Shown here in pieces: positions 3,623 to 8,147 of a stretch of DNA of 41,777 bases. A program made the translations under genes and the position numbers. Origin of the DNA: a virus. The notes under the pieces were generated by a model, which searched no databases, had not been told where the DNA came from, and worked only from the letters and a program-made list of their open reading frames with translations. How positions within the stretch are numbered: the stretch's first letter is position 1; each line of letters begins with the position of its first letter. Location of the stretch: positions 1-41,777 of IMG/VR virus record IMGVR_UViG_3300021138_000059. The stretch is one strand, 5' to 3'.

Positions 3623-3647
3623 AAGGGGGCTTTATGCCCCCTTTTTT
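3623..3647 (+). terminator. rho-independent terminator after gene 32
   Basis: GGGGGC (3625-3630), loop TTTAT, GCCCCC (3636-3641), then six Ts. This is a six-pair G/C stem, strong for such AT-rich DNA. The U-tract runs into the stop codon of the convergent gene (3646-3648). In the other direction the stem is followed by only two Ts, so it mainly stops rightward transcription. Confidence 0.92.
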
Positions 3648-6600
3648 ATGCTCCGAAAGCATATGAACTTGAACTTAAACCAAATATGTCTTGAAGAATA
3701 TTAGCATCAACACCATTTGAATCTGGTGCATTAGTTGGTTGTGATTTATCTTCACCTTTATCGGCAGCAGCTCTTTCACCAGGTCTCTCAGTAACAGATC
3801 CTCTACCAGCGCCCGCACCCATTTCTGTTGATTGTGATTTATCTAATAGATTAGAACCTGCTCTAGCTTCTGGACCTCCACCAATAGCAGCTGCAAGATT
3901 ACGAGGTGTAACTGCTCTACCTGTAGTAACTGAACCAGATGCATCTGGTATTGGTGCACCAATACGAGCTAAAGATTCACCACGTTGTTGACGATCATCA
4001 TTAAAAGCTGTTGATTGTGTTTGTTCAAGTTTTGCTGCTAAATTTGCTTTTTCGCTAGGAGCACGAGCTGCATCTGCATCATCAACAGCTTGTCTATTCA
4101 TTGCTGCATCACGAGCTGCATTTGCTTCTACTGTTGCTGTTATACTTTTGGCATGTGCAGCACTATCAGCTAACTCTGTAGAAGGAGCTTTATGATCGCC
4201 ACCACCACGACCAAATGCTGTTTCACCTGTAGTATGACCACCACCACGACCAAAATAACGAGTGTCTAATGCTGATTTTGGTTCTTTATTAGCAGGAACA
4301 GCAACTGTTTTTTTAATCTTTGGTGCTTTCATACCAAGTTCTAATGTACGTTGTTTATCAGCAGCAAAAAACATTGCTGATGTGCCTGATTCACCACGAG
4401 CTTCAGCTTCTTGATGAGCTTGGAACATTGCTCTAGATTTAGCATGACGGTCCCAATTAGGATCATCTATTTCAACAGTACGAGATGCTGCTTTTGGTGC
4501 TGCTTTTGGTTTTGCTACTTTGGCAGCATCTGCTTTACGTTTAGCTACTTCTGCCGCACCATCACCTCTACCACCACCTGTTGCACTAAATCCAGGAACT
4601 GTAACATTACCCATAGCATCATATTGCGCATCGACTTTTGTATTAGGTTCTGTAGCGCCTCTACCTGATCCTATAGGTGCTCTATTATCTAATTGTTTTG
4701 CTGCTTCCATTTTAGCAGCCATAAGTGCCATTGGATTAGAAATAGCTGCTTCGGTTCTTGTCGCTTTATCTTGTTCAGTAGCTAATGTTTTTGCCATTTC
4801 TGGAGATAAACTAGAAGCAGTTGCTACACTAACTTTATTCTCAGGTGCTGCTCCAGTAGGACGTTGAGATTTACCAACCTTCCAACCTTCCTGTTTTTGC
4901 ATAGCGTCAAGTAATTTGGTGCGTTGTTCGGTTGAAAAACTAGACATTGATGCGTTAGGATCGGCACCCATTGCTTTAATGTATGCTGGTACATTGTTTT
5001 CGCTAGCGGGCGCCCATCTACCTATAGCTTGACCAAGTGTAAGATTTTTATAAGATTTACTTTCAAATAATAAATGTTCTTGAGCTTTTCTACCAGATTC
5101 ATAACTTGGAAAAATAGCAAATCTACCATCAGAAGATGTTGCGCCCATAGACTTAGCGTAAGGTCCAAATTCAATATTTCCTGGATTATTATTTCTCCAT
5201 GAACGCGAACCACCAGTTGCACCGCGTTGAGCACTAGCTAGACTAGATCCAGAACTTGGACCAGCACCTGGGGATATAGGCGCAGCAGGACCTGCAGGAC
5301 TACCTCCAGGACTACCTCCAGGTCCAATACTACTAGGAGCTCCACTAGGAGGAGCAACTGCTGTTGGAGAATAACCTGTTACACCTGGAGTACCAGCAGC
5401 CATATTTGGTGCACTTGGAGCTGGTTGACTAGGAGGAATAGCACCAGGTGGTGCACTAGCTGGAGAAGCACCAGGAGATCCTGCTCCAGTACCTCTTCTT
5501 ACCATTAATTGACCATTTATAGGTACAAAATATTTTTTAACTTGACCGCCAGAATTACCAGCAATCATTTCAATCATATTGCCTCTAACAACACCAGTTG
5601 CTATACCTACGTGCCCGCCTGGAGCGCCTGCAGGTCTACCTCTAGTTTGAAGTACAACGTCACCTGCCATAACTTGCAAGGGATTAATATTAGTGCCCCA
5701 ACTTTGAAAACTATTAGCTGTTTTAGCACCTGAACCAGTTTGACCTGTTTGTTTTAATGTAGCATTAACAAAATCAGCACACCATGCTTCACCTTGCCAA
5801 TTGACGCCACCAGCAGCCATATATCCTGATGCACCTTGTGCACTAGATCCAACCATTGTTGATGCTAATTTAACTGCATCTGCACTTGGTGCACCAGTAG
5901 TTGCACTAGGAGGACCACCAGGTGCCATACTAGGAGCATTTGAAGCATTTGGTTGAGAAGGACCACCAGTTAAATTACGTAATTGGTTACCAATCCAACT
6001 ACCTATACCAGTGCCTTGTTGTTGAGTACCGCCTAAATACTGATTTGCAAAATCTTGATTAGATAAATTCTTATCAGATCCCCATTGAGCTTTATAAGCA
6101 TCATAACCAATCATTCCTGCAGAAATTAATGGTACGCGTCTTGCACCAAATTTTAAAGCTTTACCTCCTAAATTTTTAGCACCATTTAATAATGATGTTC
6201 CTAAACCAGCACCCGCATCCGCGCCAGCACCACCAAGTAATAATTGTTCTAAAGTTTGAAGGAGGCCGCCGCCGCCCCCCATACCTCCATTTTGTAATAT
6301 CTGTTGTAATAGTAAATTAGTTTTTTCGCCACTTTGAATAAGTGATTTAAATCCAGAATTTAATACATTAGATTGATCCATTAAAATAGCATTATTTTGC
6401 TTTAAAAGACCACCTTGAGTATTAATATCACTCTGAGTATCTCTCAAAGCATTAATAATATCTTTAGCAGCGTCACCTGTTATACCTGTTTGTTTACCAG
6501 ATTCTTTTGCGTCACTAGGCGAATCTCCTTTACTACCAATCATACTACTAGCAGTACCGCCTAGCATTCCAGCTAAAGGACTTTGACCAGTTGATGCTTT

Positions 6601-6717
6601 TTGTGCTCTTAAAGCAGCATCAATTTGTTCTTGTACTTTAGCGCTAGGTTTAATATCTTGAGAAGAACTACTTCTTCCTAATTGGCCAAGAGTTACGCCT
6701 GAAGGTGGTTTTGCCAT
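3646..6717 (-). CDS. large virion/baseplate protein with two peptidoglycan-hydrolase domains
   Basis: 1023 residues, rich in Ala, Gly, Ser and Pro. The N-terminal 230 residues are helical, with QSDINTQGGLLKQNNAILM and a Gly/Leu-rich stretch. Residues about 285-410 form an NlpC/P60- or CHAP-like cysteine hydrolase: C313 in EAWCADFVNATL, H369 in GGHVGIATG, N388 in IAGNSGG. After a Pro/Gly/Ser-rich linker, residues about 505-590 (NNNPGNIEFGPYAK, E516, then DGRFAIFPSYESGRKAQ) resemble a phage P5/lysozyme-type muramidase. The last 400 residues are low-complexity and end FGLSSSSYAFGA. It is the last gene of the leftward late cluster, behind gp26, gp51 and the holin-like gene. It probably opens the cell wall during infection or lysis. 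A combined tape-measure/hub (gp29-like) role is possible from position. gp5 in this phage has no lysozyme, so this protein may replace it. Confidence 0.75.
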   Translation of the reverse strand: MAKPPSGVTLGQLGRSSSSQDIKPSAKVQEQIDAALRAQKASTGQSPLAGMLGGTASSMIGSKGDSPSDAKESGKQTGITGDAAKDIINALRDTQSDINTQGGLLKQNNAILMDQSNVLNSGFKSLIQSGEKTNLLLQQILQNGGMGGGGGLLQTLEQLLLGGAGADAGAGLGTSLLNGAKNLGGKALKFGARRVPLISAGMIGYDAYKAQWGSDKNLSNQDFANQYLGGTQQQGTGIGSWIGNQLRNLTGGPSQPNASNAPSMAPGGPPSATTGAPSADAVKLASTMVGSSAQGASGYMAAGGVNWQGEAWCADFVNATLKQTGQTGSGAKTANSFQSWGTNINPLQVMAGDVVLQTRGRPAGAPGGHVGIATGVVRGNMIEMIAGNSGGQVKKYFVPINGQLMVRRGTGAGSPGASPASAPPGAIPPSQPAPSAPNMAAGTPGVTGYSPTAVAPPSGAPSSIGPGGSPGGSPAGPAAPISPGAGPSSGSSLASAQRGATGGSRSWRNNNPGNIEFGPYAKSMGATSSDGRFAIFPSYESGRKAQEHLLFESKSYKNLTLGQAIGRWAPASENNVPAYIKAMGADPNASMSSFSTEQRTKLLDAMQKQEGWKVGKSQRPTGAAPENKVSVATASSLSPEMAKTLATEQDKATRTEAAISNPMALMAAKMEAAKQLDNRAPIGSGRGATEPNTKVDAQYDAMGNVTVPGFSATGGGRGDGAAEVAKRKADAAKVAKPKAAPKAASRTVEIDDPNWDRHAKSRAMFQAHQEAEARGESGTSAMFFAADKQRTLELGMKAPKIKKTVAVPANKEPKSALDTRYFGRGGGHTTGETAFGRGGGDHKAPSTELADSAAHAKSITATVEANAARDAAMNRQAVDDADAARAPSEKANLAAKLEQTQSTAFNDDRQQRGESLARIGAPIPDASGSVTTGRAVTPRNLAAAIGGGPEARAGSNLLDKSQSTEMGAGAGRGSVTERPGERAAADKGEDKSQPTNAPDSNGVDANILQDIFGLSSSSYAFGA

Positions 6718-6722
6718 TTATC

Positions 6723-7274
6723 TTACTTTCCTGCGAGTTTTTCTTGCCCACGAGTATATGAGGTAATGCCTAAGATAGCACCAAAGGCAAGGTGAATCAA
6801 ACCACCATTACTTAAAGTAAGACTTTGCCATGGAACGTACTGAAGCGGTACTCCAAGACCTTTAAGAAAAACAGGCATAAACATAGCTATAATTGGAAAC
6901 ACAATAAAATCACATAGACAAATAACCATATAGAGCCAGCCCATTGCTGGTCTCCAATACGACTTCATCCAATGCTCTTCTTCTTTCTTTAATTGTTGAT
7001 CAGCCATCTCTTTATCAATAGAGACTTCTGCTAAACCAACTTGAGACTGAGCTTGTACCTGTGCAGTTTGCATTTGCATCTGCACAGTTTGTTGTGCCAT
7101 AGTAGAATTATTTTGATTATTAACATCAATAACAGTTATAGCAGGAGCTGGTTGAGGAGCTACTATTGGTGTTATAGTTGGAGGAGAAATAGCAGCCGAT
7201 TCAGCCTTAGGTGCTACCCTCTCTATAGGAGGTAGTGGTTCATCGTTAGGATCTTTATTACCAAATTTAGCCAT
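6723..7274 (-). CDS. holin-like membrane protein (GTA three-TM type)
   Basis: 183 residues. A Pro-rich N-terminus (1-50), a Gln/Met-rich stretch (60-80, QQTVQMQMQTAQVQAQSQ), then a charged helix KEEEHWMKSYWRP leading into hydrophobic segments at about 111-135 and 156-172 and a basic end (YTRGQEKLAGK). The 'W(R/K)RP...W.Y' entry followed by paired hydrophobic helices fits the 3TM holin family of gene transfer agents and alphaproteobacterial phages. It lies 5 nt before the dual-hydrolase gene on the same strand, a natural holin-lysin pair, and its start overlaps the gp51-like stop (AATGGCTAA). A structural role in the tail remains possible. Confidence 0.7.
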   Translation of the reverse strand: MAKFGNKDPNDEPLPPIERVAPKAESAAISPPTITPIVAPQPAPAITVIDVNNQNNSTMAQQTVQMQMQTAQVQAQSQVGLAEVSIDKEMADQQLKKEEEHWMKSYWRPAMGWLYMVICLCDFIVFPIIAMFMPVFLKGLGVPLQYVPWQSLTLSNGGLIHLAFGAILGITSYTRGQEKLAGK

Positions 7275-7401
7275 TTCTCTGTGAGTCCTCTAGTTTATTA
7301 AGGAAATTCATTAATAATTGAAAATAGAAATCACGTTCAAATGGTATCATTTCCTCAAGTTCTTTTATAGAATATTTATGGTGCTGAACCATAGCAAACA
7401 T
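7267..7401 (-). CDS. 51: short gp51-like hub assembly protein; also -1 frame extension of gp26
   Basis: 44 residues from ATG 7401, centred on KYSIKELEEMIPFERDFYFQ, the kind of short 'I..LE.MIPFERD.Y' helix motif seen in T4-type gp51 hub-assembly proteins, which directly follow gp26. No convincing ribosome-binding site precedes the ATG. The frame stays open upstream to the end of gp26 and joins it at a run of seven Ts, so the functional product may be a 293-residue gp26-51 fusion made by -1 frameshifting (59 residues after the slip). The stop overlaps the holin start. The protein is much shorter than T4 gp51 (249 aa). That it is coding is well supported by its packing between neighbours; the gp51 name is inference. 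Confidence 0.65.
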   Translation of the reverse strand: MFAMVQHHKYSIKELEEMIPFERDFYFQLLMNFLNKLEDSQRNG

Positions 7402-7433
7402 TGTAGTATAATAATTCTCTAATGTATTATGAC

Positions 7434-8147
7434 TCAGCGAAGCGTAAAAAAATCATTTAATGTACTCAAAACAATCGTACGATTGTTACCTAGTGAATTT
7501 TTATAACTAATAACATATTTCATCTTTGGTGCATTAGAAATATATTCATTAATTTTTTGAAACGAATTAATATCAATACCATTAATAAATTCTAGCAATT
7601 CGTCTCTAGAAAATGTTTGTGGATCATAAACAGTACTGTCATCAAATACTTTATCAATGCAACGAATGATTAATTCGATTGTTGCATTTTCTTCTGTTGA
7701 TTTAAGAAAATCTTTATCGGAGTAAATATTAGCAGATGGGTATCTTAAATTAATACCAACTGTATCAGAGATCATAATTTTATTTGAAATGTCTGATGAT
7801 TTTTCAATTTCAACTTTATCCAAATCAACTTCAAAATCATAAAGCTGGTCATCTTCAAAATCTTTGTATGATAAATTTATTTTATTTGAAACTGATAAAC
7901 CACGTAGTTTAACAAAAATATATTCAAGATCAAAAATAGCAATCTTGTTAACATTAAAATTATCATTCATAGAACAATTTTGGACAACTTGACTGACAGC
8001 AGTTAAAATATCTGAGTCATCAGCACTAGATTTAGCAGTAAGAAGAATCTTTTCTTCTTTTACAAGAAACTGTCTAAACTTAGATTTCTTACCCAAAGAT
8101 GGAATAAGAATGTCAAATTGAGGATACATAATTTTCGGTAATGCCAT
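7434..8147 (-). CDS. 26: gp26 baseplate hub assembly protein
   Basis: 237 residues (T4 gp26: 208). The start MALPKIMYPQFDILIPS and the following KFRQFLVKEEKILLTAK are diagnostic of the T4 gp26 family. In T4, gp26 is needed with gp51 and gp28 for central hub assembly. The ribosome-binding site is GGAGTGA before ATG 8147. The reading frame ends NDFFTLR; the two Phe codons form a T7 slippery run (7452-7446), from which a -1 shift enters the gp51-like frame. An 18-nt perfect palindrome (7470-7487) lies just upstream of the slip site. Confidence 0.88.
   Translation of the reverse strand: MALPKIMYPQFDILIPSLGKKSKFRQFLVKEEKILLTAKSSADDSDILTAVSQVVQNCSMNDNFNVNKIAIFDLEYIFVKLRGLSVSNKINLSYKDFEDDQLYDFEVDLDKVEIEKSSDISNKIMISDTVGINLRYPSANIYSDKDFLKSTEENATIELIIRCIDKVFDDSTVYDPQTFSRDELLEFINGIDINSFQKINEYISNAPKMKYVISYKNSLGNNRTIVLSTLNDFFTLR
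7446..7452 (-). other. candidate programmed -1 ribosomal frameshift site (U UUU UUU)
   Basis: On the complement the gp26 codons GAT TTT TTT ACG contain seven consecutive Ts. Both tRNA-Phe can re-pair perfectly after slipping back one base. The new frame reads YASLSHNTLENYYTT and runs without a stop into the gp51-like gene, 12 nt before the gp26 stop. This has the geometry of the lambda G/G-T chaperone frameshift. I see no strong downstream stem or pseudoknot. Confidence 0.65.

Follow-up and report, generated by a model that had tools for sequence, protein, structure and literature searches.

A predicted −1 frameshift on seven uridines joins gene 26 to a gp51-like tail in a T4-like metagenomic virus

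In phages lambda (G/G-T) and HK97 (gp13/gp14), a short product and a long product made by −1 frameshifting near the 3′ end are encoded next to the tape measure gene. The lambda slip heptamer is G GGA AAG. The T4 proteins gp26 and gp51 are known as “hub assembly chaperones,” and gp51 was long called essential for hub assembly but of unknown function. T4 gp51 is required for tail assembly and is absent from the final particle (PMC3004832). According to a paper that cites their work (PMC12846349), Vladimirov, Gautam and Davidson (Virology 2022) identified the tail assembly chaperones of T4-like phages, with short and long forms and a poly-T slip signal in the short gene. A 2023 preprint that also cites this work (PMC10274946) states in its citing passage that some T4-like phages have separate short and fused long genes, with no frameshifting. 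For the tail chaperone of phage Adele (Vandenendeviridae/Andersonviridae), the relevant passage of PMC12846349 describes a −1 frameshift on the poly-T motif GTTTTT, with the −1 frame uninterrupted in all members.

As far as the citing papers show, the T4-like chaperones of Vladimirov et al. belong to the same gene family as the locus described here. A preliminary description of this locus knew of no described case in the T4 hub genes 26/51; that statement does not stand, as the later papers, in the passages cited above, credit Vladimirov et al. with both the chaperone identity and the poly-T slip site. Going by those passages, the main idea of a frameshift in T4-like chaperones is already published, and our additions are the lineage, quantitative tests, and a covarying stem. 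Adele shares a poly-T −1 frameshift with our locus but represents other phage families and another motif. Our locus resembles lambda G/G-T and HK97 gp13/gp14 in general plan, whereas its slip heptamer is not that of lambda and its tail is of the contractile T4 type.

We analyzed a 41.8-kb metagenomic virus record of a marine T4-like phage (41,777 nucleotides, “the window”). The features at the center of the analysis are as follows.

7434 to 8147, minus strand: gene 26, encoding the short product of 237 amino acids, the putative TAC-N (gpG) equivalent
7446 to 7452, minus strand: slippery heptamer U UUU UUU, in which the codons TTT TTT encode F233 and F234
7267 to 7452, minus strand: −1 frame extension FFYASLSHNTLENYYTTMFAMV...SQRNG*, predicted C-terminal tail of a 293-amino-acid gp26-51, the putative TAC-NC (gpGT) equivalent
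7267 to 7401, minus strand: short gp51-like open reading frame from the ATG at 7401, as a gene finder would call it

The gene 26 product matched phrog_150, annotated as baseplate hub (E value of 3e-50), and Pfam PF12322, T4_baseplate (E value of 2e-47). Together with the match of the −1 frame to phrog_634 described below, these profiles place the locus in the T4 gp26/gp51 family. By sequence, comparison of the family with solved structures and chaperones returned chance matches only, with no detectable similarity. The AlphaFold model of gp26 (mean pLDDT of 88) had no significant match in a fold search of the PDB. The top match by probability was the HK97 tail assembly chaperone 2OB9, which was weak (probability of 0.38, E value of about 1); this modeled likeness is a suggestive pointer to a chaperone, short of proof.

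The 3′ codons of gene 26 read ...AAT GAT TTT TTT ACG CTT CGC TGA, with the TGA at 7436-7434. The seven Ts at 7452-7446 sit in the zero frame in the register X XXY YYZ that tandem −1 slippage needs, as the preliminary description had seen. It had also placed the heptamer near the gp26 stop, which is right, at a distance of 12 nt, which is not; three sense codons (9 nt) separate the two, and 12 nt is reached only if the stop codon is counted. Past the heptamer, the −1 frame reads FFYASLSHNTLENYYTT-MFAMVQHH...SQRNG* and is open to 7267 (in full, FFYASLSHNTLENYYTTMFAMVQHHKYSIKELEEMIPFERDFYFQLLMNFLNKLEDSQRNG). The predicted fusion product spans the junction ...LNDFFYASLSHNTLE and has 234 + 59 = 293 residues, with 15 codons between the FF pair and the ATG at 7401. 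Our frame analysis thus agrees with the 237- and 293-residue products proposed earlier and with a −1 frame that runs open through 15 codons into the gp51-like gene. Both predicted products would share the N-terminal domain, as the short and long forms of a chaperone do.

We surveyed 96 gp26 loci, consisting of the window, 85 IMG/VR contigs, and 10 phage records. Loci were retained by similarity to the query (the closest 80), so the survey is not a random sample. Dereplication at 90% nucleotide identity left 90 loci. All 96 loci were slippery at the same codons, with T TTT TTC or T TTT TTT in all but one, which had T TTT TTA, and each had an open −1 frame, so that the alignment of relatives proposed in the preliminary description turned up neither a locus lacking the run nor one with an early −1 stop. 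In the exceptional locus (L086) the protein changed from FF to FL, yet the heptamer was retained as TTTTTTA. The heptamer, with an open −1 frame, was also present in all seven further phages inspected, which come from other groups (Cronobacter S13, Stenotrophomonas YB07, Agrobacterium OLIVR5, Aeromonas AP1, Ochrobactrum OC, Pelagibacter Mosig, and Vibrio 6E35.1a). Among dereplicated loci with FF at the site, 89/89 used T TTT TTY, versus 41.4 expected from each locus's synonymous codon use; the corresponding log10 P of −32.7 assumes independent loci and is overstated, since the loci are related. FF pairs elsewhere in the same contigs were slippery in 30/430 cases. No known Rfam frameshift element was found at the site.

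A homopolymer at a gene break invites two other explanations. Homopolymers attract indel errors, and a miscounted T could have split one continuous gene during sequencing or assembly. However, 96 independent contigs and isolates all show this break at one and the same codon; their downstream stop positions differ, and in some records the run is just six Ts and then C. Comparison of the 96 loci refutes this explanation, to which we give a negligible probability. Transcriptional slippage on U runs occurs in bacteria, and the site offers the run that RNA polymerase would need to produce some mRNAs with an extra U that encode the fusion. Against this, the slip site is six Ts followed by C in 32/89 relatives, which is short for transcriptional slippage; the T run is always in register for tandem tRNA slippage; and a covarying stem lies 7 nt downstream, which polymerase slippage does not need. 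We consider polymerase slippage very unlikely.

The −1 peptide matched phrog_634 (baseplate hub assembly catalyst, gp51) with an E value of 2e-22. It also matched the last columns of phrog_150, which implies that some phages already encode both pieces in one protein. A tblastn search with the peptide matched 563 phage records. Among the matches listed, most began at peptide residue 1, the slip site itself, and in the phage records that we fetched the match lay in the −1 frame and began within gp26, 12 nt from its end. Across the 96 loci this frame was open for 47 to 77 codons, the 47-codon case apparently running off its contig. We focused on codons 7 to 16, which follow the gp26 stop and precede the window's ATG. 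There, stops occurred in 0/90 loci in the −1 frame versus 48/90 and 73/90 in the other frames. Within the window's group, these codons had a pN/pS of 0.29 in the −1 frame versus 1.07 and 0.99 in the two others, and later gp51 codons also gave 0.29. The lack of −1 stops and the low pN/pS argue that ribosomes translate the region ahead of the supposed gp51 start and that selection acts on the peptide it encodes.

These data bear on whether the tail is instead a 44-amino-acid gp51-like gene of its own, started at the ATG at 7401 or reached by reinitiation 33 nt after the gp26 stop, with no frameshift. The frame does have an ATG, at 7401, and internal ATGs of this kind are often where public records begin a short gp51. 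However, the first ATG of the −1 open reading frame had no Shine-Dalgarno sequence in 87/90 loci, nor did the one in the window, in keeping with the earlier remark that the gp51-like frame has no good ribosome-binding site. Its position was not conserved, ranging from codons 0 to 9 to beyond codon 50, and one locus had no ATG at all. Moreover, codons before the window's ATG were as constrained as those after it, and an independent start explains neither the heptamer nor the stem. We therefore consider separate initiation very unlikely, and the frame at 7267 to 7401 is probably not an independent gene. In the records of S-CAM1, S-BM3, ACG-2014d, Cronobacter S13, and Aeromonas AP1, the −1 tail is an unannotated gap.

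A downstream RNA stem was the element missing from the preliminary description. In the window it comprises the following parts.

7439 to 7445, minus strand: 7-nt spacer between heptamer and stem
7428 to 7438, minus strand: 5′ arm of the predicted stem, GCUGAGUCAUA, which holds the gp26 stop at 7436-7434
7383 to 7393, minus strand: 3′ arm of the predicted stem, UAUGGUUCAGC

The stem has 11 bp, pairing 7438-7428 with 7393-7383, and appeared in both the minimum free energy (MFE) and centroid structures. Its 7-nt spacing falls within the 5 to 9 nt expected of a stimulatory RNA element. Compared with dinucleotide shuffles, the 75 nt after the heptamer had a mean z of −2.15 across relatives, versus −0.38 for an upstream control. 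To control for protein sequence, we also compared MFE with that of −1 frame sequences recoded with synonymous codons. The z score was −3.86 for the window, −2.76 ± 0.31 for the window's group, and −1.83 ± 0.22 for the more distant group, versus −0.71 for a control region. In the 38 aligned loci of the window's group, the first nine stem pairs were formed in 90.4% of cells. Double-sided changes occupied 14 cells versus 3.7 ± 1.5 expected (0/500 shuffles), and this covariation signal was gone when the partner was moved by one base. A column-pair scan of the same 38 loci found covariation only in the single 9-bp helix, and none between the loop and a pseudoknot partner up to 110 nt away. We infer that the stem stimulates slippage.

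The complete 9-bp stem was present in only 4/52 more distant loci, many of which have a shorter hairpin instead. At the same start, the short hairpin of the distant loci averaged 4.63 bp versus 3.58 ± 0.27 expected, above the synonymous null. A few distant loci (L044, L046, L073, and L080) had little structure after the heptamer. A single stem for all loci was not supported outside the window's group, as the more distant loci (group B) had 5.29 pairs versus 5.04 expected, barely above the synonymous null.

Sequence upstream of a slip site is another known place for a frameshift stimulator, in the form of a Shine-Dalgarno-like motif. GAGG, AGGA, GGAGG, or AAGG occurred 5 to 20 nt upstream of the heptamer in 45/90 relatives. 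We rejected it as a stimulator here because it is absent from the window and is confounded with conserved EG codons at that place.

Downstream of the gp26-51 pair, the window encodes two further features.

6723 to 7274, minus strand: 183-amino-acid holin-like open reading frame (Pfam GTA_holin_3TM, phrog_3427), separating the gp26-51 pair from the probable tape measure gene
3646 to 6717, minus strand: 1,023-amino-acid open reading frame, a probable tape measure protein with peptidoglycan-hydrolase domains, as judged from size, position, and a CHAP domain

An open reading frame of at least 400 amino acids started within 900 nt downstream in 60/61 loci with enough sequence, and a tape measure gene is annotated at that place in the HTVC008M and Cr30 records. 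The family thus has a tape-measure-sized frame following the chaperone-like pair, resembling the lambda order G, G-T, H. The position is that of chaperone genes, just upstream of the tape measure gene, with the holin-like gene intervening in the window. The probable tape measure frame carries a CHAP domain just below the Pfam cut-off and a stretch matching the endolysin family phrog_873, and so has two putative peptidoglycan-hydrolase regions.

Taken together, we consider it very probable that a −1 frameshift makes gene 26 and the gp51-like tail a single gene with two products, as the preliminary description had proposed. Supporting this are the slip heptamer found throughout the relatives, the selected open −1 frame upstream of the supposed gp51 start, the lack of a conserved start or ribosome-binding site, the covarying stem at the usual distance, and the adjoining tape-measure-sized gene. 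The slip site, the selected −1 frame, the covarying stem, the synteny, and the homology to both T4 gp26 and T4 gp51 are seen in the sequence; slippage itself, its efficiency, and the roles as chaperones are what we infer from it. In the proposed mechanism, most ribosomes would terminate at 7436-7434 and release the 237-amino-acid gp26. A fraction would pause at the stem and slip back one base on U UUU UUU, with both tRNA-Phe re-pairing, and these would continue in the −1 frame to yield the 293-amino-acid gp26-51. If the pair works like lambda G/G-T, the short form would probably coat the tape measure protein and the tail of the long form would recruit tail-tube subunits; neither product need stay in the finished tail.

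We then considered T4 itself. T4 gp26 (208 amino acids) and gp51 (249 amino acids) both matched PF12322 end to end, with E values of 9e-64 and 4e-52, and BLASTP aligned them directly (E value of 2e-6). T4 gp26 reached position 235 of phrog_150, whereas gp51 covered 13-280. T4 gp51 matched phrog_634 and is the only one of the two to carry the extra tail, which the window encodes in its −1 frame. By these matches, the two T4 proteins are the long (gp51) and short (gp26) members of one family, and T4 makes from separate genes what the window would make by frameshifting. T4 gene 26 reads GAG TTC TTT GAG and lacks the heptamer. Aeromonas phage 44RR shares the T4 arrangement; T4, 44RR, and Klebsiella phage KP15 each encode the two forms separately, and their gene 26 lacks a slip heptamer with an open −1 extension. 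In KP15 (locus L106, 2501-3795), the tandem genes 51 and 26 share a strand and overlap by 4 bp, while their order in T4 and 44RR is divergent. The tandem arrangement fits an origin of the pair by tandem duplication.

The simplest reading of these comparisons would be an ancestral frameshift cassette whose place was taken by a gene duplication in the T4 branch. In its full form, which we hold with moderate confidence, the cassette would be ancestral in T4-like phages and have a lineage-specific RNA stimulator at constant spacing: in the window's group the covarying stem, whose arms pair at long range across a loop of about 38 nt, and in many cyanophages a short hairpin. In the T4 branch, duplication would have produced gp26 and gp51, one copy having lost its slip site and the other having had its two frames fused. 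We dropped T4 gp28 as a third paralogue, its phrog_1140 cross-match being weak (E value of 9e-4) and its profile comparison probability 0.3%. Separately, MG010123.1, a 32-kb record of “Staphylococcus phage SAJK-IND,” contains a gene whose protein is 98.6% identical to T4 gp26 and is probably mislabeled or mixed.

For the family, these data indicate that the short and often unannotated “gp51” of marine T4-like phages is most probably the C-terminal tail of a frameshifted gp26. T4 gp51 would then be linked with chaperones of the lambda G-T type, and the T4 branch may be a compact example in which gene duplication took over from programmed frameshifting. As a stimulator, the covarying stem is a testable candidate.
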